Virus record (IMG/VR): IMGVR_UViG_3300046464_000588
Span: 1-20,418 of that record
Reading direction: 5' to 3' (one strand)
DNA from: a virus
Length of the DNA stretch: 20,418 nucleotides
Both the position numbers and the translations under genes were made by a program. The notes under the pieces are model-generated. The model saw only the letters and a list, made by a program, of their open reading frames with translations. It did not search any database and had not been told where the DNA came from. Shown here piece by piece: positions 8,751-20,418 of the stretch (its first letter is position 1; every line of letters starts with the position of its first letter).

Positions 8751-9467
8751 ATGCCTTTACCAAAAATTTCAACTCCAACCTATGAGTTGACAATCCCTTC
8801 AACTGGAAAGAAGATTAAGTATAGACCTTTCCTTGTTAAAGAAGAAAAAGTTCTTATCATTGCTATGGAAAGCGAAGATATGAATACTATTGCCAGTGCT
8901 GTCAACGATGTTATTAAAAGTTGTATAATTACTCGCGGTATAAAAGTAGAAGATCTTTCAACATTTGATATTGAATATTTGTTTTTAAATATTAGAGGAA
9001 AATCTGTAGGAGAAGAAGTAGAAGTACTTATTACTTGTCCTGATGATAACACAACTAAAGTACCTACAATAATTGCACTTGATGAAATTCAAGTTATATT
9101 TGATGAGAAACATAGCAAAGATATTAAACTTGATGATACCTTAACGATGAGATTAAAGTATCCATCAATGGAAGAGTTTATCAAGAGTAATTTTGCATTA
9201 AGCGATATTAGTGTTGATGATACTTTTGAAATTGTAATGTCTTGTATTGAACAAATTTACAATGAAGAAGAATCATGGTCAATCAAAGATTGTACTAAAA
9301 AAGAACTTAAAGAATTTGTCGAGCAATTAAGTTCTAAGCAGTTCAAACAAATTGAAAATTTCTTTGAAACAATGCCAAAACTTTCCCATACAATAACTGT
9401 AACAAATCCAAATACTGGAGTAGAAAATGATGTTGTACTTGAGGGATTAGCAAGTTTTTTCGTATAA
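8751..9467 (+). CDS. gp26: Baseplate hub assembly protein gp26 (tail-chaperone-like)
   Basis: A 238-aa member of the T4 gp26 family (T4_baseplate, PF12322 as I recall), needed for assembling the central baseplate hub. Typical segments are KYRPFLVKEEKVLIIAMESE (24-43), STFDIEYLFLNIRGKSVGEE (70-89), CPDDNTTKVPTI and LKYPSMEEFI. The C-terminus is helical (ELKEFVEQLSSKQFKQIENF). It lies just after a tube protein and before long tape-measure-like genes, the place where other tailed phages encode tail-assembly chaperones. Its last codons contain the slippery heptamer TTTTTTC at 9455-9461, so a share of ribosomes may shift to -1 and fuse the 60-aa ORF after residue 237. ATG 8751 has AGGA 4 nt upstream. 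Confidence 0.9.
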   Translation: MPLPKISTPTYELTIPSTGKKIKYRPFLVKEEKVLIIAMESEDMNTIASAVNDVIKSCIITRGIKVEDLSTFDIEYLFLNIRGKSVGEEVEVLITCPDDNTTKVPTIIALDEIQVIFDEKHSKDIKLDDTLTMRLKYPSMEEFIKSNFALSDISVDDTFEIVMSCIEQIYNEEESWSIKDCTKKELKEFVEQLSSKQFKQIENFFETMPKLSHTITVTNPNTGVENDVVLEGLASFFV

Positions 9468-9481
9468 GTATGGCTCATACT
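9441..9481 (+). promoter_or_regulatory. Predicted -1 ribosomal frameshift signal joining gp26 to the 60-aa ORF
   Basis: Three elements of a bacterial -1 frameshift site occur in order. GAGGGA (9441-9446), SD-like, lies 8 nt before the slippery site. The slippery heptamer T TTT TTC (9455-9461) is in the correct register for gp26 codons TTT TTC. After a 5-nt spacer there is a hairpin, AGTATG (9467-9472) with CATACT (9476-9481) and loop GCT. The zero-frame stop TAA is at 9465-9467. After the shift the ribosome reads CGT ATA AGT ATG and enters the 60-aa ORF in frame, giving a 300-aa product. The hairpin also covers the downstream ATG, which has no ribosome site at normal distance. Confidence 0.75.
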
Positions 9482-9652
9482 GATCTTGAGTCATACTTTA
9501 GAATTAATTTTGCACTGATGCAACACCATAAATATAGCTTGACAGAACTTGAAAATATGCTTCCGTGGGAGAAAGAAATATATCTTTCTCTATTACAACA
9601 GCACGTTGAGGAAGAAAATTTAAAAGCACAACACCAACAGATGAATGGTTGA
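9470..9652 (+). CDS. Small helical gp51-like ORF, probably the frameshift extension of gp26
   Basis: Sixty residues, mostly helical: MAHTDLESYFRINFALMQHH, then KYSLTELENMLPWEKEIYLS and LLQQHVEEENLKAQHQQMNG. The pattern LPWEKEIYLSLL recalls the xPWE+xIY motif of small tail-assembly proteins (T4 gp51 and lambda gpT type); this is recalled, not searched. It starts 2 nt after the gp26 stop and is in the -1 frame relative to gp26, with no in-frame stop between the slippery site and its ATG. The ATG lies inside a hairpin stem and lacks a Shine-Dalgarno at normal spacing, so frameshift expression as a gp26 fusion looks more likely than independent initiation. It overlaps the next gene by 8 nt. Confidence 0.8.
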   Translation: MAHTDLESYFRINFALMQHHKYSLTELENMLPWEKEIYLSLLQQHVEEENLKAQHQQMNG

Positions 9653-11189
9653 AATTTCACCACTAATAGCAAGAAGATCTAGAATTTCTGCTAGTGCATT
9701 TACTGGCAGATCAGATCCTACTGTTACTGAGATTGATCCACAATCAAAAGCATTATTAAACAGTAATTCAATTCAACTTGGATTGGTGTCAAGACAAGTC
9801 GAAAATTTGTCTGCAAGAGTAAATCAATTATCAAATTCTTTACAAGCGGTAAGAAATAATTTAGCAACTTCTCAAGCATTAGAGAGACAAAAAGAAAATC
9901 AAGAACAAATATTAGCGACAAAACTTGCTCAACAAAAATTAAGGGAAGGAAAAGAAAGTGCAATTGAGAAGAAGATAACAGTAGCAGCATTTAAACCTAT
10001 TAATAAATTAGGTAGAACGGCACAGTCTTCTTTGTCCGGTTTGAGTGATATTTTTAAACGTCTTTTTGGTGCCTTCTTAGCATTTAAGGGAGTGGAAACA
10101 ATAAAGGCACTTGCAGAAGGTAATACTGAAAAATTAGAAGAAATTAAGAATCAAGTATTACTAACAGTTGGTGGTTTTGTAGGTCTAAGTCTTGCAGTTA
10201 AAGTTGCAACTGGAGGTTTAAGTTTAGGTTTCCTTAAACTTTCAGGGCTCCTTGTAGTTTTGGGAGGATTAGCATTTTTTAAAGATGATATTAAGAATCT
10301 TGTTAAGGATTTTTGGGGTCAATCATTTAGAAGAGTTAGAGATAGAAGACGAAATAGTGAAAATAATGGTCAAGGTGGACCAGAGAATCCCGATCCAGTA
10401 ATTGATTACCAAAATCAAGATCCCGACATAGAACCCCAAAAATCTCCAACAAGTGAAGTAAAACCTTCATCAGAACCTGAAGCACCAAATATTGGTTATG
10501 AATGGTGGAGAAATATTATTACTGATAGTACACCAACATCGATGAAGAGAAGAAGAGAAGAAGAAAAAATACAACCACCATCAAAACAGAAAGAAAATGA
10601 AGAAAATAAAACTGATATCCAACCAAATCCCACTAAACCTGAAATAGAAGGAAGCAATAATACTGATGAGAGTAATTTAAACGACAAAGGTGACAATATT
10701 GAACCTCAACCAAAGGGTCCTATTCCACTTGATGTCATACCGTTTAAAGATCCTCAATCTGAACCAAAATCGCAGTCAAAACCACAAAGTTCTTTACTAC
10801 CTACAAGTAGAGAGCAAGAATTTAGGAAGAAAACTGCTGAAAGAGAATCACGTCCTGAAAACCAGGTTGGTGCGAAGGTAACAGATCCTGAAATCCTCAA
10901 AATGATTGAAGAGGAAAAAGAAATTGGTAGAACAGGAAAAATGCCTACCAATATTGTACCAATTTATAAAGATAAAGGAGATATTATTAAAAATGTGTCT
11001 CAATCAACTGATAATCAATCTATAAATGTTGTACCTATGCCAATACCAATGGATTCTGGAGGTGGTCAACAGCAGGTGAATGTAAGTTCTGGAAGTATTG
11101 GGGAAGGTCCTGGAGTTTCAATTTCTTCGTCAAATCCTGACAATCCATATATTCTTGGTGCATTAGCACAATATAACGTACTAGCATAA
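9645..11189 (+). CDS. Tail structural protein with coiled coil and hydrophobic core, tape-measure-like
   Basis: A 514-aa protein with no family I can name firmly. Residues 40-112 form a likely coiled coil (LVSRQVENLSARVNQLSNSL and on, Gln/Lys/Glu-rich). Residues 133-212 are hydrophobic and Gly-rich, with two membrane-compatible stretches near 171-187 and 190-211 (GLLVVLGGLAFF). Residues 230-450 are a disordered Pro/Glu/Lys/Asn linker. The C-terminus has INVVPMPIPM followed by a Gly/Ser-rich end and NPYILGALAQYNVLA. Its place after gp26 and the gp51-like ORF is where tape-measure genes sit in other phages, and a hydrophobic helix in an extended protein fits that role; T4 gp29 (590 aa) would be the counterpart. 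The start ATG 9645 overlaps the 60-aa ORF. Confidence 0.78.
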   Translation: MVEISPLIARRSRISASAFTGRSDPTVTEIDPQSKALLNSNSIQLGLVSRQVENLSARVNQLSNSLQAVRNNLATSQALERQKENQEQILATKLAQQKLREGKESAIEKKITVAAFKPINKLGRTAQSSLSGLSDIFKRLFGAFLAFKGVETIKALAEGNTEKLEEIKNQVLLTVGGFVGLSLAVKVATGGLSLGFLKLSGLLVVLGGLAFFKDDIKNLVKDFWGQSFRRVRDRRRNSENNGQGGPENPDPVIDYQNQDPDIEPQKSPTSEVKPSSEPEAPNIGYEWWRNIITDSTPTSMKRRREEEKIQPPSKQKENEENKTDIQPNPTKPEIEGSNNTDESNLNDKGDNIEPQPKGPIPLDVIPFKDPQSEPKSQSKPQSSLLPTSREQEFRKKTAERESRPENQVGAKVTDPEILKMIEEEKEIGRTGKMPTNIVPIYKDKGDIIKNVSQSTDNQSINVVPMPIPMDSGGGQQQVNVSSGSIGEGPGVSISSSNPDNPYILGALAQYNVLA

Positions 11190-11190
11190 A

Positions 11191-12672
11191 ATGAAATCAC
11201 TAAAGAAAAATAGAGACAGTATAGAAGGAATTAGAAAATCTTTACTTTCATTTGGTAAGGGTATTACTTCTGCTACCTCAATATCTTTTGGTATTAGTAA
11301 AGACCTTGTACGTGGAAATACAGCAAAGAAAAGTGCTATTTTCTCAAAATCAAGACTATTCAATAAGAGAAGACAGTCTGTCTTAAGAAGGGAAAAGGAA
11401 GGTATAATTGAAGCGAATCAAATAGGTAATATCAATAATGCTTCTCCTACTAAAAGGATATCATCAAGCACAAAAGGATTGTTAGGACGAATAATGGATG
11501 CACTTGGTGCAATTTTGATTGGTTGGGGAATTGTCAATCTTCCTAGAATAATTGAAGGTGTAAATAATCTAATAAAAAAGATACAAGATATTATAGAAGT
11601 AACTAGAACTTGGTATGAAAATACTATTAATTGGTTTACTTCACTCACGAGTGATCTTGATGATAAATTAAATCAATTGAGAAATATATCTTTTGACTTT
11701 GATGGTGATACCGAAAATATAGAAAAAAGTGCTGCCGAAAATAAAAATATATTTGCTGATATAATAAAAAGACTTGAGGAAACTATTGATTTTTGGAGGA
11801 ATGGTCCTCCTCCGATGGAAGGACCAGAAGCACCCAGTCAAAATAATAACACTGTAAACCCATCATCATTCAGTGGAAGAAATATGGGTGGAAGTCCTAA
11901 GGGTTTACTAAAATTTATTAGTAGTGCAGAAGGTGGATATGGATCCACATATTCTGGGCATTTGAGTGATTTCTCTAGAGCAGGTGAAGATATCACACAA
12001 ATGACTATTACTCAATTAGTACAATATCAGAAAGATTACCTTGCACATCAAAGAAAAAAGGGTGTTCCAGCAGATTCTAGAAGTGCAGCAGTTGGTGCTT
12101 ATCAAATGTTGTATCCTGATAAGTTTGTCAAAGAAGCAGGTCTTACAATGGGGGATAAGTTTACTCCAGAGAATCAAGATAAATTGATAGTAGCATATAT
12201 GACAGATAGGGGACTGACAGCAGAAAAGGCAGCAAAAGATCCTGTAGGATTTGCTAAAGGATTATCACAAGCATTTGCTGGTGTTCCTGTTGTTGAAGGA
12301 ATGCAAGGTGATGCCCAATATGTAGAACGAGGTCAAAGTTACTATAGGGGGCGGGGAAGTAATGCAGCAACAACCTCTCCAGAAAAGGTTGAAGAGGCAA
12401 TCAAACAGTTTGGTGAGTCATATAAACCAAATACAAATCAATCCAATAATACTGTAAATCCTAATTTGAACGCCAACATACCAACCAATAAATCTACTAA
12501 TTTAGCGTCAAATAATACACCAAAAACAATCCAAGTACCAATTCCAATTAGTACCTCAACATCTCCACCACCAGCACCAAGAACAGGATCAAATCAGGGT
12601 GGTGGTACAAAGATTGTTAGTGGTGGAACTTCGTTAAATAGTTTTATATTCACAGAGTTACAATACACATAA
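11191..12672 (+). CDS. Tail structural protein carrying a muramidase domain
   Basis: A 493-aa two-part protein. Residues 1-205 are basic and then helical, with a hydrophobic segment GLLGRIMDALGAILIGWGIV (96-115), similar in style to the protein before it. Residues 237-385 look like a lysozyme or transglycosylase: KFISSAEGGYGSTY with candidate catalytic E247, MTITQLVQYQ, SAAVGAYQMLYPDKF (298-312), FTPENQDKLIVAYMTDRG. This order resembles the lambda R (GH104) group and other phage muramidases. The peptide NNTVNP flanks the domain at 219-224 and 419-424. The C-terminus has TIQVPIPIST and a Gly-rich end. It is probably a virion enzyme that opens peptidoglycan during infection, the task of the T4 gp5 lysozyme. 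It begins 1 nt after the preceding stop. Confidence 0.8.
   Translation: MKSLKKNRDSIEGIRKSLLSFGKGITSATSISFGISKDLVRGNTAKKSAIFSKSRLFNKRRQSVLRREKEGIIEANQIGNINNASPTKRISSSTKGLLGRIMDALGAILIGWGIVNLPRIIEGVNNLIKKIQDIIEVTRTWYENTINWFTSLTSDLDDKLNQLRNISFDFDGDTENIEKSAAENKNIFADIIKRLEETIDFWRNGPPPMEGPEAPSQNNNTVNPSSFSGRNMGGSPKGLLKFISSAEGGYGSTYSGHLSDFSRAGEDITQMTITQLVQYQKDYLAHQRKKGVPADSRSAAVGAYQMLYPDKFVKEAGLTMGDKFTPENQDKLIVAYMTDRGLTAEKAAKDPVGFAKGLSQAFAGVPVVEGMQGDAQYVERGQSYYRGRGSNAATTSPEKVEEAIKQFGESYKPNTNQSNNTVNPNLNANIPTNKSTNLASNNTPKTIQVPIPISTSTSPPPAPRTGSNQGGGTKIVSGGTSLNSFIFTELQYT
11845..12462 (+). repeat. Direct repeat (NNTVNP) flanking the muramidase domain
   Basis: An 18-bp sequence coding Asn-Asn-Thr-Val-Asn-Pro occurs at 11845-11862 and again at 12445-12462, exactly 600 bp apart. 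The copies differ at three third-codon positions. They sit at the two edges of the muramidase domain. Confidence 0.7.
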
Positions 12673-13991
12673 TGCCAGCATCAGATCCTTCAACATACGA
12701 AGAGATTCTAATTGAATCTGGAGACGGTTCTAAGTCTGTGGATCTTAGAAGTGGTGTATCTTCAATTGATTATTATGAAGATATTTTTTCACCAACTGTT
12801 ACCGCTAAAATAAATGTAACTTCTTCTGGTCCTGTTATAGATGGAAAATCACTATATCAAGGGTTAAAACTTAGAGGAGCAGAGAGAGTTTCTTTAAGGG
12901 TGAAAGGAAATTCTACCACAATGCCTAAGTTAGATTTTTCTGAAAAACCAGAAGATTATCTTTTTGTTTCAGGAATATCGAATGTTATTTCAGATAATAA
13001 TCAAGAGTCTTTGACGTTAAATCTTTGTTCTAGAATTGCTATTACAAACGAAACAACTAGAGTTACAAAAAAATATCCTACTTCACAAAATATAACTGCA
13101 TCAGTTGAATCTATTGTCAATGAGTACTTGGGTAAGGGTTTATTTGCTTCCACACCAGATCAAACTCAAAATAAGTATGGATTTATTGGTAATATGCGAA
13201 AACCATTTACAGTTTTGAGGTGGTTATCATCAAAAAGTGTTCCAGATTTGAAGGGTGATGGTGTTGCAGGATTTGTATTTTATCAAACAAAAGAAGGACT
13301 TCACTTCAAATCAATTGACAATTTAATTACTCAAAAACCATATTCACAAAAATATATTGAAACAAGTGTTGCTGACGGAGAAAATCAAAATCAAAGTGAA
13401 GATTTTAAAATTACATCATATGTTGTAAGTAGAAATCAAAATCTCATGGAGAATTTGAGATTAGGTTCATATTCGTCGATGAGATACTATTTTGATATGC
13501 AGAGATTTGAATTTACTTCAGAACAGAAAGGTCTTTTCAAAATATCAGATCATTTAAATTCGACAAAGAATCTTGGATCTGAAAGACCTGTATTACCAAA
13601 ACTTAGCGAAACATCTGATAAGACATTAAGTGAAGTTCCCACCAGAATGATGACTGGATTTATTGATAGGGGAACTTTAGAACAGAATGTAGATACTACA
13701 GAAAATGCAGATCCTTTTAAGTATCAATCTCAGGCAATATATCGATATAGCAGTCTTTTTGTTCAAAAAGTTCAAATGACTGTACCTCTTAACACACAGT
13801 TAAAAGCAGGTGACGTGATAGAATGTGAATTTAGACAAGTATCTACTGGAAAAGAAGATCCAGATCCTTCAGAAAGTGGTCTATATATGATTAAGGAACT
13901 ATGTCATCATTTTGATAGTGAAGGATCTTACACTGCAATGATGTTAGTGAGGGATACTTTTGGGCAGATCAAACCAAATAATAAAGTCTAA
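12672..13991 (+). CDS. gp27: Baseplate hub protein, gp27-like
   Basis: A 439-aa protein that I assign to the gp27/gpD hub family, whose trimer links the tail tube to the central spike. The start has a beta-rich domain, SGVSSIDYYEDIFSPTVTAK and INVTSSG, typical of hub proteins in T4-like marine phages. The middle has DYLFVSGISNVISDNNQESL and SIVNEYLG. The C-terminus has LKAGDVIECEFRQVSTGK and LYMIKELCHHFDSEG-YTAMMLVRDTFG, resembling the second barrel domain of gp27-type hubs. The length compares with 391 aa for T4 gp27. It overlaps both neighbours by 1 nt (TAATG) and directly precedes the gp5-type hub gene, as expected for proteins that form one complex. Confidence 0.82.
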   Translation: MPASDPSTYEEILIESGDGSKSVDLRSGVSSIDYYEDIFSPTVTAKINVTSSGPVIDGKSLYQGLKLRGAERVSLRVKGNSTTMPKLDFSEKPEDYLFVSGISNVISDNNQESLTLNLCSRIAITNETTRVTKKYPTSQNITASVESIVNEYLGKGLFASTPDQTQNKYGFIGNMRKPFTVLRWLSSKSVPDLKGDGVAGFVFYQTKEGLHFKSIDNLITQKPYSQKYIETSVADGENQNQSEDFKITSYVVSRNQNLMENLRLGSYSSMRYYFDMQRFEFTSEQKGLFKISDHLNSTKNLGSERPVLPKLSETSDKTLSEVPTRMMTGFIDRGTLEQNVDTTENADPFKYQSQAIYRYSSLFVQKVQMTVPLNTQLKAGDVIECEFRQVSTGKEDPDPSESGLYMIKELCHHFDSEGSYTAMMLVRDTFGQIKPNNKV

Positions 13992-16543
13992 TGTTAGAAG
14001 AATCTTTATTTAAAACTAATTTTGTAGGAAGAGACGGATTTCGTTGGTGGATCGGTCAAATTGCACCTGTAGAATCTTGGCAAGATCAGGCTGATGGTGG
14101 AGGATGGGGAAATAGAGTTAAAGTTCGTATTATGGGATATCACCCATACTCTGAAACAGAACTTCCTAATGAGGATTTACCCTGGGCGCAAGTTCTTCTT
14201 GGAGTAACTGATGGATCTGGTGCTTGTAATAGAGCAAAAACTCCAAAACTTGAACAAGCAGATACAGTATTTGGTTTCTTTTTAGATGGAGATAATGCAC
14301 AACTACCTTGTATATTAGGTGTATTTGGAAGAACAAAGGCAGTATCTTACTCTGGACCATATTCAGCACCATTTCAACCCTTTACTGGATATGCAGGTCC
14401 TATAAAGAAATCTAGTGCTATTGTTGGTAATGAATCCAATGAACAAAATTCAGATTCTCAAAAATCACCAAGAACAGTTTCCAATAAAATTGCTGATAAA
14501 CTAAATGGGCAGGGTGGTGGTCCAGATGAAGATCCTACAACCAAAGAAATTTCAGCATTTGGTGCTATTGGGCAGAAAGTTACGATGGCAACTGCCAAAG
14601 TTAGTTCTGAAATCGATGACATAAAAACTGATATTGAAAATTTTGTCAATTCTGTACAAGAAATCACAAAGGGAATTACCGATGGTATTGGTAATATTAC
14701 ACAACAAATTAATGAGAGAATTGATGCAATAACAAAAAGCATACAATCTGGTGCTACTGGAATGATTCATAATATGACCGCAGCATTGTCTGAGTCTATG
14801 GGTGAGAATATGAATAAAGGTCTTGATGTTCTTTATAAAGGTGTGTATGCCACGGTTCTTGCTGCAACTGGTAGTAGTAAAGCAGCAGATATTGCAGGTA
14901 TTGCCGCACAAGCATCTTTTATCAGTCCAGTAAAAGCAATATCAGATGCCCTACCTTGTATTGCTAACTCCGTGATTGGTGGTATCGGCGGAATGATCAA
15001 AGGTCTCTTACAAAATGTTGCCGATAATGTAACAAACTTTGTTAGTTGTATTGCTGATCAAGGTGTTGGTGCAATAATGAACACGATCATTGGTGGAATC
15101 ACAAAAGCTTTACAACCACTTTTAGGAGGTGTTGGAAAAATTCTTGGTGGTTTTAGTCCGTTTGGTTTCTTAACAAGTGCAGTTGATGCTTTCCAAAATG
15201 TTGTGAGCGCACTTGATTGTAATGAAGCACCAGCAGATTATGCCCTGGCATCAAATGAGTGGACTATTGGTGTTGGTAGTAAAGAAGGATCAGGAACACC
15301 AGTAAGTCAGATTTTAGAAACTGCAAACAAAGCAAGAGAATTTGCAGAAAGAGGATTTGGTGTTATTGACGCTGTTCAAGATATTGCAGGACTTACAGGT
15401 TCTCTTGGTATATTTGATTTTGCAAATCCAAGTGTATCTGTTCCTGGATTTGAAAGTGTTCTTGGTAATTGTTATGCTGGACCACCAGAACTTGGTGGAT
15501 GTGGTGGAACTAAAATTAAAATCTTTGGTGGAAAAGGTATTGGTGGAGTTGCAAATGCAATTATCAATCTTGCAAATGCAGACCGTGGTGTAACTGGTAG
15601 TCTTCTTGGTGTAGACCTTGTAAATGGTGGTGGTGGATATACGACTCCACCATTTGTTGAGATTGTTGATGAGTGTGATCAAGGATTTGGTGGAGTAGCA
15701 AGAGCTATTATAGATAGAGATCCAAATTCAACATCTTATCAGCAAATAACCGATATTGTTTTAGTATCTACTGGAGAAAATTACACACCATCTGTTGATA
15801 ATCCGACAGATGTTATTATTGATCCTCAAAAACCAACTACAATTTATAGTCCTGGTAATAATTATTCTTCAGATGATATAGCATCTGATAATTTAGGAAA
15901 TACATATACAATTGCAGTAGATGATAATGGTAGTATTACTAATATTATCCCTGCGGGTAATACAGATGATAATGTAAGTACATCAGATCGTATATTCCCA
16001 TCTGTAGATAGAGAAGTTGAGATACAAATTTCAACATTATCTGGTTTTGGTGCTATTATTAAACCTAGATTTACTAGAAGACCTGAGGAACCACAAGGCG
16101 AGGTCAAACAAGTTATTGATTGTATTTCTAATGATGACGGTCTTATAGGTTATGTTAATGGTAAACCATATTACGGTCCATTCCACGTACATCCATCAAA
16201 TGGTAGAAAAATGGTTGGATCTGTTCACGTAAACAGACCTCACCAATATATCTACGATACTAGAGAAGAAAGTGTTGTTTCTGCATCCACATCAGTAGGA
16301 ACAGTTACACAGGTGACTCAACAAATTTCAGAAACTGTCACTACTACAAGTAGCAGTAGCGCCACACCATCAACAACTACATCATCAACACCACCACCAT
16401 CGTCTACACCTCCACCAACTACATCAGGTGGAGGTGGTGGAACATCAACAACACCTACGCCAACACCTACGCCAACACCGACTCCTTCACCCCCAACACC
16501 TCCAAGTGGTGGTGGCGGTAGTGGTGGATATGGTGGATACTAA
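13991..16543 (+). CDS. gp5: Baseplate hub protein with gp5-type OB fold, no lysozyme domain, Thr/Pro-rich tail
   Basis: An 850-aa mosaic. Residues 17-114 match the OB-fold of T4 gp5: RWWIGQIAPVES, WGNRVKVRIMGYHPYSE, LPWAQVLLGVTDG, DTVFGFFLDGD, LPCILGVFGR. No lysozyme follows. Residues 190-420 are helical and Ala/Gly-rich with hydrophobic stretches (VIGGIGGMIKGLL). Residues 505-615 contain two Gly/Tyr units (VDLVNGGGGYTTPPFVEI and IVLVSTGENYTPS). Residues 718-758 carry a His-rich motif, GPFHVHPSNGRKMVG, VHVNRPHQYIYD. The last ~65 residues are Ser/Thr, then Pro-Thr repeats and Gly. It probably forms the central hub trimer with the gp27-like protein. Start ATG overlaps the gp27 stop as TAATG. 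Symbol given by domain; it is not a full-length gp5. Confidence 0.85.
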   Translation: MLEESLFKTNFVGRDGFRWWIGQIAPVESWQDQADGGGWGNRVKVRIMGYHPYSETELPNEDLPWAQVLLGVTDGSGACNRAKTPKLEQADTVFGFFLDGDNAQLPCILGVFGRTKAVSYSGPYSAPFQPFTGYAGPIKKSSAIVGNESNEQNSDSQKSPRTVSNKIADKLNGQGGGPDEDPTTKEISAFGAIGQKVTMATAKVSSEIDDIKTDIENFVNSVQEITKGITDGIGNITQQINERIDAITKSIQSGATGMIHNMTAALSESMGENMNKGLDVLYKGVYATVLAATGSSKAADIAGIAAQASFISPVKAISDALPCIANSVIGGIGGMIKGLLQNVADNVTNFVSCIADQGVGAIMNTIIGGITKALQPLLGGVGKILGGFSPFGFLTSAVDAFQNVVSALDCNEAPADYALASNEWTIGVGSKEGSGTPVSQILETANKAREFAERGFGVIDAVQDIAGLTGSLGIFDFANPSVSVPGFESVLGNCYAGPPELGGCGGTKIKIFGGKGIGGVANAIINLANADRGVTGSLLGVDLVNGGGGYTTPPFVEIVDECDQGFGGVARAIIDRDPNSTSYQQITDIVLVSTGENYTPSVDNPTDVIIDPQKPTTIYSPGNNYSSDDIASDNLGNTYTIAVDDNGSITNIIPAGNTDDNVSTSDRIFPSVDREVEIQISTLSGFGAIIKPRFTRRPEEPQGEVKQVIDCISNDDGLIGYVNGKPYYGPFHVHPSNGRKMVGSVHVNRPHQYIYDTREESVVSASTSVGTVTQVTQQISETVTTTSSSSATPSTTTSSTPPPSSTPPPTTSGGGGGTSTTPTPTPTPTPTPSPPTPPSGGGGSGGYGGY
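16451..16486 (+). repeat. 12-bp tandem repeat coding Thr-Pro-Thr-Pro
   Basis: The unit ACACCTACGCCA occurs twice perfectly (16451-16462, 16463-16474), followed by a degenerate third copy. It encodes the Pro-Thr repeat near the C-terminus of the gp5-type hub and could change copy number by slippage. Confidence 0.75.
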
Positions 16544-16549
16544 TAAATA
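16542..16549 (+). promoter_or_regulatory. Candidate late promoter AATAAATA before the spike gene
   Basis: AATAAATA overlaps the hub stop codons (TAATAA) and lies 19 nt before the ATG at 16569. GAAAGGG at 16552-16558 is the ribosome site. It is one mismatch from the T4 late element and matches the motif before gp26. The resulting leader would be short, about 13 nt. Confidence 0.45.
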
Positions 16550-16568
16550 TTGAAAGGGTAGATATTTT

Positions 16569-17579
16569 ATGGCACAAGAAGAACCGAAAACAAAATTCCA
16601 TAAGAGGTCACTAGAGAGTTTTAGTCCAAATGTAAGATTGGATACTGGAAACCCTCAGATGGGTCAGAATGGTTCTGATGTTTATAATTTGTATGCAAAT
16701 ACCGAAACTGGTGATAAATCAGTTATTGGAATGACAGAAGGTGGTATCACTCACGTTTATGGTGATAGAACTATTGAAGTTGTAGGTGGACATAAAAATC
16801 CAGAAGGAAGTGTTGATATTTTTATAACAGGATTGCATGGAAGTATTGTTATTAATGCTTTAGAGAATGGTGATGTCTGTATAAAAGGCAGAAACATCCA
16901 TATGGAGGCAAAAGAAGATATTACAATTAAAGCAGGAAACAATATTAAGATCCAAGCAAAAAATATTTTAGAACTTGGACCAGGTAAAAAAGGATATTGT
17001 AAATTCACTGAAACAACCAAGAGACCTAATTGGCACGCTATATGTGGATATCAAGAGAATTTAATTGGCAGATCTGGATTAGGTCTTCGTGCAGAAAGTT
17101 TATTTAATACTGCAGCAGGACTTGCTGCTGTTACCGGTGGTCCTCTTGGTGGTATTGCAGCTGCAGCAGCAAATGTTGCTACTGATATGGGAGCAAGTGC
17201 AGTAACAGATCTTGCAAGTGGTGGTTTAGCATCTGCTGCAACTAATGCATTAGGTGCTGTCTCTGGAGGAAGTGGAATTATTGGTGCTGCAACTGGTGCA
17301 GCAAATATATTAAGTGGTGGTCTTCAACCTGGAGCAATCTTATCAAATGTTGCTGGGCAAGTTGTTAGTGGAGGCGTAATACCAGGATCATTAGTCGGTA
17401 CGGCAGGTGAAGTATTAGGTAATCCTGTTGGTGCTGCTTCAGATCTACTTGGTATTGCTGATCCAGGATCCAATTTAAGTCAAGCAGCTCAGGCAGCATT
17501 TGGCGATTCTGTTGATGAAGTATTACAAGATGCTTTAGATAATGTACCAATCAACCCATCAGACGTAATAGATTTCTAA
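16569..17579 (+). CDS. Baseplate spike protein with beta-helix needle region
   Basis: A 336-aa protein. Residues 58-140 show short alternating repeats typical of triple-stranded beta-helix spikes: GGITHVYGDRTIEVVGG, GSIVINALENGDVCIKGRNI, HMEAKEDITIKAGNNIKIQA, KNILEL. This is the pattern of the needle part of T4 gp5 and of gpV/VgrG spikes. Residues 180-336 are very rich in Ala and Gly with recurring hydrophobic helices (AAGLAAVTGGPLGGIAAAAA, GAATGAANILSGG) and end in VIDF; their role is unclear, perhaps packing inside the tail tube or a membrane-active segment. It directly follows the OB-fold hub gene, consistent with a needle that docks onto it. A separate promoter-like motif precedes it. Confidence 0.78.
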   Translation: MAQEEPKTKFHKRSLESFSPNVRLDTGNPQMGQNGSDVYNLYANTETGDKSVIGMTEGGITHVYGDRTIEVVGGHKNPEGSVDIFITGLHGSIVINALENGDVCIKGRNIHMEAKEDITIKAGNNIKIQAKNILELGPGKKGYCKFTETTKRPNWHAICGYQENLIGRSGLGLRAESLFNTAAGLAAVTGGPLGGIAAAAANVATDMGASAVTDLASGGLASAATNALGAVSGGSGIIGAATGAANILSGGLQPGAILSNVAGQVVSGGVIPGSLVGTAGEVLGNPVGAASDLLGIADPGSNLSQAAQAAFGDSVDEVLQDALDNVPINPSDVIDF

Positions 17580-17580
17580 A

Positions 17581-18078
17581 ATGGCAGACACATATTACGA
17601 CGGAGAACAAACATTTGGATCAAAAGCATTCTTTTACGAGAATGCTAATTTTGAAGGTGGTTTGAATTTAGAATCATCTGCAAATGTAAAAGAGATTTAT
17701 GAAAAAATATGTGTTTATGATGGTGCAGCCTACGAAGATATAATCATTGATGTAAATAAAGGATCTCTTCATAATTACACTAAAAATTCGACTGGTAATT
17801 TTGCATTTAATATAAAAAACTTAAAAGGTATACCCACACAAAGAAGTATAGTTGTAACCATACTTATCCCAATGGGTTCCAGTGCATATGTTATGTCAAA
17901 CCCAACTACAACTGGATTTAAAATTGATGATAAACAAGTTGAGGTTAAATGGATAAACTCAACTTCACCATCTTCTGGATTTACAAACGCAGTAAACGTA
18001 TATACATTTGCAATTATTAAAAATAACGCTTCAAATTATACAGTTTTAGGAACTTTGAGTAATTTTGGTGCTGGATAA
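17581..18078 (+). CDS. Small beta-rich tail-fibre-type structural protein (165 aa)
   Basis: Probably a virion surface or fibre-network protein, but I cannot name a T4 homologue. It has 165 residues, one Cys, and alternating beta-type segments: DIIIDVNKGSLHNYTKNSTG, NFAFNIKNLKGIPTQRSIVV, TILIPMGSSAYVM, FKIDDKQVEVKW, and YTFAIIKNNASNYTVLGTL. From memory, this arrangement (a Y-T-x-N-x-T-G-N-F strand, an x-V-x-W strand, then Y-T-F-x-I-I-K and V-L-G-x-L) recurs in fibre and neck proteins of cyanophages. It starts 1 nt after the spike gene's stop codon and its stop overlaps the start of the adhesin gene (TAATG), so it may be an attachment or chaperone partner of that adhesin. Confidence 0.75.
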   Translation: MADTYYDGEQTFGSKAFFYENANFEGGLNLESSANVKEIYEKICVYDGAAYEDIIIDVNKGSLHNYTKNSTGNFAFNIKNLKGIPTQRSIVVTILIPMGSSAYVMSNPTTTGFKIDDKQVEVKWINSTSPSSGFTNAVNVYTFAIIKNNASNYTVLGTLSNFGAG

Positions 18079-20418
18079 TGCCGGTATTTGGAACAAATTC
18101 ATCAATTAACGCTGTTGGATATGGTTTTCTTGGATCAAAACAGAGAACTGTAGAGACCACTATTGCCCCCAGAAATCTAACTGAAGGTAATGTAATTACT
18201 GTCACTGTTACGACCGATGGTTTTGAAAATGGGACAGTTCTTTATTACACTATTAGAGGAAATCTTGGTACAATAACAGCGTCGGATTTTGTAGATAATT
18301 CCTTAACAGGAACATTTACTATCAATAATGATAGTGGTTCTTTCACTAAAGCAATTGCTGCGGATGGTGTTGTTGAAGAAGGTGAAGGATTCGTTATTGA
18401 TATTAGAGAGACTTCACATACATCGAATGTAATTGAAACAACACAGTCAGTTTATATTCAAGGTTCAACTTCAACTGGAGTTGGTGGAGTAGATGATGGG
18501 CAAGGTGGTTCTACATTCCACGATTTTGGTAGTGATGGAAATCTGATATTTGATGCAAATACATCAACATCATACACATATACTGCTGCTACAGACGTAA
18601 AGTTAAAGGCATATCTATGGGGTCAAGGCGGCAGATGTGCAACTAATGGATCTTTAGGTGGACATAGCTATGGAACTTTTAATTTAACTCAAGGTGATCA
18701 ACTTCATATACGTTTGAACTACGGCACTAGTAATGCTGGTAGTGGATCGGGTTCTGGAACAAATGCTGCTTGTGGTGGTGGTGGATTAGCAGGCATTTTT
18801 TCATCATCAACAATCAATCAATCTACTGCCAGACTGATTGCTGGTGGAGGTGGTGGTGGAGTAGGATCAATTGGTGGAAGTTCATCAACAAATGGTGGTG
18901 ATGGTGGAGGAAATACAGGTGTTAATGGCGGCATTGCGAATCAGAGTCAGATAAACTCACAAGGTGGTGGTGGAGGAACACAAAGTGGTGCTGGTGGTGC
19001 TGGAACTGCTGATAGTAGTTTTACTAAGACTACCACATCATATAATTCAAGTTCACGAACAGAGGCAGGTTTGCTTCATGAAAGAAGTGGTGGTGTGAAT
19101 ACTACTTTTGATATTAGTTCAGGTAGTCAAGCTAGTTGTGTTCATCAGAATACCTTTGAATATATTTGGACCGTGAATGAGTCTTATGCTAACAACTCTT
19201 ATTCAGTGTCTGCTAGTAATATGAGTATGGATTTAAACTATCAATCAAATGGAACATATCAACCTCAAGGATTTTATGCTGTAGTTGATAATAAGAGTAA
19301 TAATAGTTTCAGAGTCAGGTGGTATAGAAATGATAATAATACACAGGTCAACGTTAAATACCACACCATTGTTTGTACTGGTGGAAGAAATGAAACCACC
19401 TCTCAGACTGTATCAGTAAGTGCCAATGGTTCTGGTGGCGCAGCATTACAAGGTGGCAATGGTGGTAATGCAGCAACAGGTTTTGGTGGCAATAACGCTG
19501 CTGGGGGTGGTGGAGGCGGTGCTGGATACTATGGCGGTGGTGGTGGAGCAGGTGGTAATGATTTTGGTGATGCTACCCGTGCTGGTAGCGGCGGCGGTGG
19601 TGGTTCAGGTTATGTTCATTCTTCCGTATCTAATGGATTTACTGGTGCATTTTCTTCAGGTTCTTCACATCCAGATAGGGAAGATGCTGGTGATCCTGGA
19701 GAAGATGCAAAGGTAGTATTTGAAGGTATTACTTCTTCTGCGTATGTGAGCACGGGTGGTGATAATGAAACTTATTCAGTTAATGTACCAGCAAATGCTA
19801 CAACAATGACTGCAAAGTTATGGGGTGCTGGTGGAGCAGGAGTTGGTGAATGTCCGTCTAATAGTTTTAGTGGCGGTAGTGGTGGTCACATTGAAGGTAC
19901 AATACCAGTATCAGGTGGAACTGTAGATGTATATGTTGGTGGATCTTCATCTGGTTCTCCATCTGGGTCCGCAGGATATGGTGCAGGCGCTGGTGGAGGA
20001 TTATCCGCTATTAAGTATTCTGGAAATATATTAATTGCTGGCGGTGGTGGTGGTGCTGGTCAAAACGGTCAAGGTGGTGCCGGAGGTGGCAACGGTAATG
20101 GTAGTTCTGGAACTGGACCAAATAATGCTAGTGGTGGAACTAGTAGTGGAGGAGGCAGCGGAGCGCAAAGTGGATCAAGTTGGAATAATGGTTCTAATGT
20201 GAGAAATGGTGGTCGTGGTGATGGTTCTGGATCTGGTCAAGGAAACCGTGGCGGTGGTGGTGGCGCTGGATATTATGGCGGCGGCGGTGCCGGTGGTGAT
20301 GGAAACGGTAACTGTACTGGTGGAGCAGGAGGTGGTGGATCAGGTACCATCTCTGGTTCATGGGTGAATACTGTAAGTCAATCAGGAGAAACGGGAACTG
20401 GAGGAGGTAGGACTGCTA
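18078..20418 (+). CDS. Giant glycine-rich tail-fibre adhesin, 3'-truncated by the window edge
   Basis: The frame from ATG 18078 is open to the right edge, giving at least 780 residues. Residues 1-23 (MPVFGTNSSINAVGYGFLGS) are a likely attachment segment. Residues 25-135 resemble a Calx-beta domain (NLTEGNVITVTVTTDGFENG, VVEEGEGFVIDI). Two homologous glycine-rich modules follow: module 1 from about 155 to 553 and module 2 from about 554 to beyond 780. Each has a Tyr-rich strand, an LWG-GG turn, LIAGGGGG, and GGGAGYYGGGG. Module 1 holds a non-glycine-rich insert at about 312-448. Polyglycine-helix adhesins of this kind form receptor-binding tips in T4-like phages. The ATG overlaps the preceding stop (TAATG). 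Confidence 0.9.
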   Translation, partial: MPVFGTNSSINAVGYGFLGSKQRTVETTIAPRNLTEGNVITVTVTTDGFENGTVLYYTIRGNLGTITASDFVDNSLTGTFTINNDSGSFTKAIAADGVVEEGEGFVIDIRETSHTSNVIETTQSVYIQGSTSTGVGGVDDGQGGSTFHDFGSDGNLIFDANTSTSYTYTAATDVKLKAYLWGQGGRCATNGSLGGHSYGTFNLTQGDQLHIRLNYGTSNAGSGSGSGTNAACGGGGLAGIFSSSTINQSTARLIAGGGGGGVGSIGGSSSTNGGDGGGNTGVNGGIANQSQINSQGGGGGTQSGAGGAGTADSSFTKTTTSYNSSSRTEAGLLHERSGGVNTTFDISSGSQASCVHQNTFEYIWTVNESYANNSYSVSASNMSMDLNYQSNGTYQPQGFYAVVDNKSNNSFRVRWYRNDNNTQVNVKYHTIVCTGGRNETTSQTVSVSANGSGGAALQGGNGGNAATGFGGNNAAGGGGGGAGYYGGGGGAGGNDFGDATRAGSGGGGGSGYVHSSVSNGFTGAFSSGSSHPDREDAGDPGEDAKVVFEGITSSAYVSTGGDNETYSVNVPANATTMTAKLWGAGGAGVGECPSNSFSGGSGGHIEGTIPVSGGTVDVYVGGSSSGSPSGSAGYGAGAGGGLSAIKYSGNILIAGGGGGAGQNGQGGAGGGNGNGSSGTGPNNASGGTSSGGGSGAQSGSSWNNGSNVRNGGRGDGSGSGQGNRGGGGGAGYYGGGGAGGDGNGNCTGGAGGGGSGTISGSWVNTVSQSGETGTGGGRTA
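18540..20418 (+). repeat. Two homologous glycine-rich modules in the adhesin gene
   Basis: The modules start near 18540 and 19740 and align by order of motifs. A near-identical DNA segment coding GAGYYG occurs at 19518-19535 and 20263-20280, with a similar glycine run after each; LIAGGGGG occurs in both. Module 1 has an extra ~137-residue insert at about 19011-19421. Module 2 runs past the window. Confidence 0.7.

Follow-up and report, generated by a model that had tools for sequence, protein, structure and literature searches.

The cell-puncturing device of phage T4 combines, in gp5 and its adjacent partner gp27, a gp5-family OB domain, a beta needle and a lysozyme. The present work compares with this device, and with its closest described relatives, a block of genes in a virus fragment of 20,418 bases (IMG/VR record IMGVR_UViG_3300046464_000588; the whole of this stretch is referred to as the window), whose best DNA matches are Prochlorococcus phage P-SSM2 and other marine cyanomyoviruses. 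In this block the OB domain, the beta spike and a lambda-type lysozyme domain are found in three separate genes, whose products have 850, 336 and 493 amino acids (aa) respectively. It is quite probable that a T4-like cyanomyovirus encodes its central cell-puncturing device in separate parts in this block, each of the three proteins playing the role set out below.

Departures from a single gp5 chain are known from several systems. In T4 itself, cleavage of gp5 at Ser351 leaves the needle as a chain of its own in the virion, according to the accessible part of PMC3004832. The window differs from T4 in having three genes rather than one, in possessing a lysozyme that is of the lambda type rather than the T4L type and is located on an upstream protein, and in an OB protein with added long helical and gp18-like domains, both of them predicted. 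The gp5 of Sinorhizobium phage phiM12 has, like the window, OB, spike-like and lambda-type lysozyme modules, but it carries them in one chain of 537 aa, in the order OB, spike, lysozyme. The hub protein gp15 of Anabaena myophage A-1(L) (8kea) has a lysozyme domain homologous to that of the window, but there the hub ring protein itself has the enzymes as insertions, and the OB domain and beta strands form one spike protein; the available text of PMC10966104 also describes a wall peptidase domain on the hub-region protein, and an OB spike that lacks lysozyme. In phiKZ, as far as the accessible portion of PMC5380687 extends, the spike and the lysozyme gp181 are separate proteins, as they are in the window. 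Among phage proteins, the phiKZ spike (6orj) matches the structural model of the 336-aa protein best in VIA-align (Z 8.5, root-mean-square deviation (rmsd) 7.7, 124 aligned), although the gene layout of phiKZ is unrelated. We know of no cassette carrier, in the sense described below, in that phage. In VgrG-type spikes the gp27-like, OB and spike parts form one chain, and VgrG and the spikes of extracellular injection systems (8gra, 7b5h, 7aef) share a beta spike fold with the 336-aa protein.

Separation of the gp5 modules

Carriers (the 493-aa protein and its homologues) were obtained from 97 loci, and 52 of them were aligned, together with 46 gp5s (homologues of the 850-aa protein), 46 spikes (homologues of the 336-aa protein), 43 members of the family of the neighbouring 514-aa protein and 23 gp27s, near-duplicates being avoided in every set. 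Searches of the PDB with the single sequences of the 493-, 850- and 336-aa proteins returned nothing relevant, and only profiles succeeded. When the 210 proteins of these sets (46, 46, 52, 43 and 23) were cross-searched, the lysozyme, spike and gp5 profiles were found to match their own families only and never to overlap. The lysozyme profile matches none of the 46 gp5s, none of the 46 spikes and 31 of the 52 carriers, from part of which it was built, and the spike profile matches none of the 46 gp5s and all 46 spikes, which are its own training set.

The same three profiles all match the single gp5 of phiM12: at residues 26-89 (OB, 46.6 bits), at residues 216-258 and 290-345 (spike, a weak match of 14.7 bits) and at residues 403-507 (lysozyme, 45.5 bits). 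When 1,110 sequences, shuffled and reversed decoys among them, were searched, the lysozyme profile matched phiM12 gp5 alone, and the spike profile matched only this protein and, at 12.4 bits, Cr30 gp5; the record of phiM12 gp5 itself notes “Muramidase (phage lambda lysozyme)”. Because phiM12 gp5 holds all of the modules, the three genes of the window can be recognized as three parts of one T4-superfamily protein. A first-pass annotation, made from the letters of the window alone, had assigned an OB-fold without a lysozyme to the 850-aa protein, beta-helix repeats to the 336-aa protein and a muramidase domain to the 493-aa protein upstream of gp27, and had described the functions of T4 gp5 as split over three genes. 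All three open reading frames are present where it had placed them, the split is borne out by the profile comparison, and the three assignments agree with the evidence given below, with the restriction that the beta spike occupies only residues 10-145 or so of the 336-aa protein.

The arrangement is not confined to the window. In an adjacency sample of 87 distinct contigs (which leaves out 7 duplicate loci, the window's own record L002, the 100% identical neighbour record L003 and P-SSM2, L001), the carrier adjoins gp27 in 87/87, gp27 adjoins gp5 in 83/84 (the exception, L055, has gp5 at that place by profile), and gp5 adjoins the spike in all 68 contigs that are long enough; the 514-aa family adjoins the carrier in 84/87, the family being without a match in L089, L096 and L097. 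The annotation was right to speak of an alternative design, but the design is no peculiarity of this virus, since it is the layout of the whole group, and the separation or displacement of the tail lysozyme has precedents in A-1(L), in phiKZ and in the cleavage of T4 gp5. What the block represents is a group-wide modification of the T4-type puncturing device. Each of its departures has a precedent when taken singly, but for their combination none was found; no text describing the three-way split was found in the open-access literature. Among the comparison phages of other bacteria, gp5s without the T4 order also occur outside cyanobacteria, and Methylophilales phage Melnitz-3 has a different layout.

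In the 850-aa protein the OB domain is detected by several kinds of search. The Pfam family Gp5_OB matches the window's own copy at an expectation value (E) of 0.0032, below the curated cut-off, and matches 39 of the 46 aligned homologues, the best at 6e-10; the profile of 46 gp5s finds T4-type gp5 structures over its residues 42-138 (9f4a at 5.5e-6, T4 gp5 1pdl at 0.003); and tblastn with residues 1-180 finds the gp5 of an E. coli phage at 8e-6. Superposition of residues 15-117 by VIA-align gives Z 6.6, 6.5 and 6.2 on T4 gp5 (for 2z6b, rmsd 3.8 and 89 aligned) and Z 6.8 on P1 baseplate protein 9vzk, values which are unconvincing if taken alone. Lysozyme families are absent from all 46 members of the family by Pfam as well as by the lysozyme profile. 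A C-terminal beta-helix was likewise not detected in the 46 by Gp5_C, DUF2345 or the spike profile, a result that leaves a diverged helix of another type still possible.

These findings bear on nomenclature. The 850-aa protein belongs to PHROG 1922 (8e-128), which is named “baseplate hub subunit and tail lysozyme”, and of this name the first part alone holds up. The P-SSM2 and phiM12 records alike call the OB protein “tail lysozyme”, a label which is misplaced in the window's group because the enzyme sits on the neighbouring protein. The correction of the label gives functions to the core clusters T4-GC 13, 14, 16 and 17 of very common ocean viruses, and it shows which protein should be read for the passage through a given cyanobacterial wall.

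Outside the OB domain, the AlphaFold model of the 850-aa protein contains long helices at the place that the lysozyme occupies in T4, whose fold matches are no better than helix noise in both Foldseek and VIA-align, and a beta-rich stretch at residues 505-700. Foldseek with the whole model returned helix noise only, with no match at E<=0.001. Within the beta-rich stretch, residues 611-695 can be superposed on residues 99-188 of the T4 tail sheath protein gp18 (3fo8) with Z 7.6, rmsd 2.3, 72 aligned and 28% identity, so that on the model the hub protein appears to include a domain resembling that of the sheath; sequence searches for such a domain gave no match, the best being beta-propellers at E 0.026. 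The C-terminal accessory region is disordered in the model. It includes GPFHVH at residue 729, part of a His-rich motif that 22 of the 46 gp5s have and the shorter gp5s lack.

The evidence for the spike comes from both sequence and structure. DUF2345, which we take to be the tail of VgrG, matches 24 of the 46 spike homologues at E<=0.1, while no Pfam family was found in the window's own copy; the family profile finds VgrG 8gra at 0.007 together with other injection-system spikes, and PHROG 3363, whose function is unknown, matches residues 8-132. In the model of the 336-aa protein, a structure prediction having been proposed in the annotation as a check, residues 10-145 form a ladder of short strands with pLDDT mostly 57-88, and the top five PDB matches in Foldseek are all contractile-injection spikes (7b5h at E 0.012, prob 1.00). 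The phiKZ spike is listed second by VIA-align, and the fold is assigned on the joint evidence of Foldseek and sequence, because OspA and other unrelated single-layer beta proteins receive similar Z values. The 336-aa protein possesses a DUF2345/VgrG-like beta spike at residues 10-145.

The fact that OspA-like proteins match the model as well as spikes do might instead indicate that the 336-aa protein is some other trimeric beta component of the baseplate, for example a fibre base, and that the 850-aa protein forms the needle with its beta-rich C-terminal half, where residues 505-700 provide a candidate; an extension of 190 aa past the tip of a needle would also be odd. This arrangement is improbable, since residues 505-700 resemble the gp18 domain rather than a beta helix, the spike profile finds nothing in the gp5s, and the 336-aa family finds its best matches, by Foldseek as well as by sequence, among injection-system spikes. 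The extension itself, about 190 residues (about 146-336) modelled as low-confidence helix rich in Gly and Ala, is short or absent in most of the family: 5 of the 46 spikes have 323-349 aa and the other 41 have 179-246 aa. It is possibly membrane-active, or a replacement for the tip. No PAAR tip was found at E<=0.01 in the complete P-SSM2 genome or in a 231-kb relative (G001, a relative of L013); PAAR is over the cut-off in S-CREM2 and S-CRM01 and below it in Syn9.

The lysozyme carrier and its paralogue

The profile of the lysozyme domain, built from 28 copies (residues 233-408), finds the A-1(L) hub 8kea at 1.9e-9 and lambda lysozyme 1am7 at 6.7e-7. Glu247 is invariant in 28/28 domains and is presumably the catalytic Glu of lambda lysozyme, a family which we take to be GH104. 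The 493-aa protein can be considered a homologue of lambda lysozyme with a conserved Glu, and is predicted from its sequence to be muralytic, although no Pfam family labels the window's own copy as a lysozyme. The same lysozyme domain is found on three different carriers, in phiM12, in A-1(L) and in the window's group, and the transfer of modules within the puncturing device is therefore testable.

Alignment of the 52 carriers shows conservation at the N-terminus and in the final residues, and a variable middle. Pfam detects an M23 peptidase in 36 of them, SLT in 12, SLT_3 in 11 and Phage_lysozyme2 in 4; glucosaminidase is present in two carriers, and GH19 and VanY in one each. In most of the relatives examined, the carrier bears a cutting enzyme other than, or in addition to, that of the window. 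Among 82 pairs of carriers that are at least 60% identical in the N-terminal module, the alignment covers less than 60% of the shorter middle in 18; in the pair L053/L054, the N-terminal modules are 90% identical and 13% of the middle is aligned. The 493-aa protein is a cassette carrier, in which conserved ends flank exchangeable wall enzymes. The suggestion in the annotation that the device is adapted to another kind of cell wall or receptor is plausible, and the exchangeable cassette agrees with it, but no receptor evidence was found for the window's device and, as noted above, gp5s without the T4 order are not limited to cyanobacteria.

Evidence that proteins at these positions are virion components comes from S-CREM2, for which the available text of PMC10665884 reports two large proteins, at the same two places, with 73 and 71 unique peptides in purified virions by mass spectrometry. 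The second of them, ORF209 (71 unique peptides), has the lysozyme domain at E 1.1e-15 and directly precedes gp27 (25 peptides) and gp5 (40 peptides). In virions of S-SM1, gp5 and the T4-GC 15 protein are present, according to the accessible part of PMC3037559. A short FQQSMGSVAP-like repeat also occurs dozens of times in ORF209 (L098:11185-15555); the tail of this phage is 418 nm long.

The match of the carrier to PHROG 90, “endolysin” (9.7e-25), and the label of endolysin given to the S-CREM2 homologues could be taken to mean that the 493-aa protein serves mainly in lysis at the end of infection and sits in a tail operon by chance. This is very improbable, because the gene is translationally packed between hub genes in 87/87 contigs, because the carrier has conserved ends that are not part of an enzyme, and because the S-CREM2 counterparts are abundant in virions.

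The 514-aa protein encoded immediately upstream is a paralogue of the carrier. The N-termini of the two families are related by hhalign with probability 97.7 and E 1.5e-12 over 162 columns at 11% identity, and the two families cross-match in P-SSM2 at 1.8e-6 and 2.3e-8. No enzyme was found in the window's 514-aa copy; in S-H9-2 the lysozyme domain sits on this other paralogue (1.5e-20). The counterpart of the 514-aa protein in S-PM2 (L103:1156-4659) has a match at residues 66-218 to the ADP-ribosyltransferase family PF01129 (1.3e-5, over the cut-off), as well as a Phage_lysozyme2 domain, and on this sequence evidence it is a possible injected effector on a tail protein. In S-CRM01 the place of the two proteins of its relatives is taken by a single one of 864 aa (L101:8410-11004), which contains a GH24-type lysozyme; inspection by eye also suggests an M15-like peptidase motif.

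The existence of two paralogues at this place raises the question of whether they are two halves of a tape measure, equivalent to T4 gp29, which would fill the tube, fix the length of the tail and be ejected with the DNA, the carrier cutting the wall as well. A muralytic tape measure is known in pb2 of phage T5. The pair occupies the gp28/gp29 place of T4, beside gp26-gp51, where phiM12 has a tape-measure-like gene, and both proteins have an N-terminal coil and a hydrophobic segment. There are also weak matches to PHROG tape measures in S-CRM01 (1e-4) and in the P-SSM2 carrier (0.0021), and S-CREM2, with its 418-nm tail, has counterparts of 1565 and 1456 aa, three times as long. No other candidate is reported for these phages in the available portion of PMC7029224. 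The relation of length to published tails in four phages is not linear, however: S-CREM2 has 3021 aa for 418 nm, S-N03 has 1655 (933+722) for 138, S-H34 has 1671 (936+735) for 129 and S-CRM01 has 864 for 140-170. The extra length in S-CREM2 consists of low-complexity repeats and enzyme domains rather than helix, and hhalign reveals no profile link to T4 gp29 or phiM12 gp122. A two-piece tape measure is accordingly possible, but the assignment is a tentative one. More tentative still, and on balance unlikely, is the wider proposal that in T4-like cyanomyoviruses a paralogous tape-measure/pilot pair fills the tube and bears exchangeable wall enzymes (a glycosidase and a peptidase), that one and the same pair of proteins is where both tail length and wall specificity evolve, and that the lysozyme has moved between gp5, hub and tape measure in related phages. 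As an indicator considered separately, the idea that carrier length follows tail length appeared strong on S-CREM2 alone, and was set aside when it failed on S-N03, S-H34 and S-CRM01.

Proposed working of the separated device

In the preferred reading, a puncturing device in separate parts, the 850-aa OB hub would sit below the gp27-like ring, and the 336-aa VgrG-like spike, which we infer to be trimeric, would dock under the OB hub. Contraction of the sheath would drive the spike and the OB hub through the outer membrane, after which the spike would come off. The 493-aa protein, as a tail protein of the virion whose conserved N- and C-terminal ends would anchor it in the hub or tube, would bring the wall enzyme, and the exchangeable cassette, here the lambda-type lysozyme, would open the peptidoglycan once the spike had passed. 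This order of events is modelled on T4 and A-1(L), as they are described in the accessible parts of PMC3004832 and PMC10966104. The T4 needle holds the lysozyme at about 10% activity until it dissociates, according to the same part of PMC3004832; by analogy, with the enzyme on another protein, a cleavage step of the T4 kind would not be needed. The present work shows by computation which domains the proteins have, that these are separate, that the gene order is conserved and that cassettes are exchanged; the virion presence of the S-CREM2 counterparts is taken from the literature.

Several results weigh against this reading of the block. The match of the spike profile to phiM12 gp5 has only 14.7 bits, the two structure models are of low overall quality (mean pLDDT 55.5 for the 850-aa protein and 53.7 for the 336-aa protein), and the Z-scores of the OB and spike domains fall within the range of unrelated folds. 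The S-CREM2 proteins ORF208 and ORF209 do not match the N-terminal profiles of the two window families, and because of this their link to the window consists only of position and the lysozyme domain; the spike profile also gave no match among the S-CREM2 proteins tried. Finally, Pfam identifies no enzyme in the 516-aa carrier of P-SSM2, and no recognised enzyme was found in L053, L056 and L067, 3 of the 10 carriers that were scanned singly.

Locus order and feature coordinates

The gene order in the window is gp53, tail tube cap, gp4, tube protein, gp26, 514-aa protein, 493-aa protein, gp27-like protein, 850-aa protein and 336-aa protein, which parallels the P-SSM2 gene clusters T4-GC 6 to 17. 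The coordinates of the features discussed are collected in the table.

Table. Features of the hub and spike block, in window coordinates
Feature	Position	Strand	Basis
514-aa protein, P-SSM2 cluster T4-GC 13, carrier paralogue: N-terminal coil and hydrophobic segment, variable disordered middle, conserved C-terminal peptide	9645..11189	+	hhalign, alignment
Lysozyme carrier, 493 aa, T4-GC 14, with an exchangeable enzyme middle between a conserved N-terminal module and a conserved C-terminal peptide	11191..12672	+	alignment, Pfam
Carrier N-terminal module, residues 1-165, common to the 514-aa protein	11191..11685	+	hhalign, alignment
Predicted lambda-type lysozyme/transglycosylase domain, residues 233-408, invariant Glu247	11887..12414	+	profile; PHROG endolysin 9.7e-25
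Carrier conserved C-terminal peptide LNSFI..., residues 482-493	12634..12669	+	L482 and N483 invariant in 52/52
gp27-like hub protein, 439 aa, T4-GC 15	12672..13991	+	PHROG 350 “tail protein” 2.5e-96; profile match to phiM12 gp27
gp5-like OB hub, 850 aa, T4-GC 16, without lysozyme	13991..16543	+	Pfam, PHROG, profile searches
OB domain, residues 15-117	14033..14341	+	VIA-align and profile
Long predicted helices, residues 207-378, at the place of the T4 lysozyme	14609..15124	+	model, pLDDT mostly 57-78
Predicted beta domain, residues 611-695, like a domain of T4 tail sheath gp18	15821..16075	+	VIA-align
Accessory gp5 C-terminus: His-rich YYGPFHVHP...H...H motif, then Pro/Thr/Gly-rich tail	16151..16540	+	sequence motif
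Separate spike protein, 336 aa, T4-GC 17	16569..17579	+	profile, Pfam, PHROG
Beta spike domain, residues 10-145	16596..17003	+	model, Foldseek, VIA-align
Gly/Ala-rich C-terminal extension, residues 146-336	17004..17576	+	pLDDT under 50

The designation of the 439-aa protein as gp27 is right by synteny, by PHROG 350 and by a profile match (2.6e-29) to the phiM12 protein whose annotation as gp27 comes from HHpred. A comparison made directly with T4 gp27 gives probability 2 and E 0.025, which is too weak to count, and there are no matches in the PDB. A search for inverted repeats in positions 9467-17600 yielded one weak pair only, which has no meaning. Downstream of the spike gene, an open-ended Gly-rich, fibre-like reading frame of 780 aa, with no Pfam or PHROG match, extends from position 18078 to 20417.

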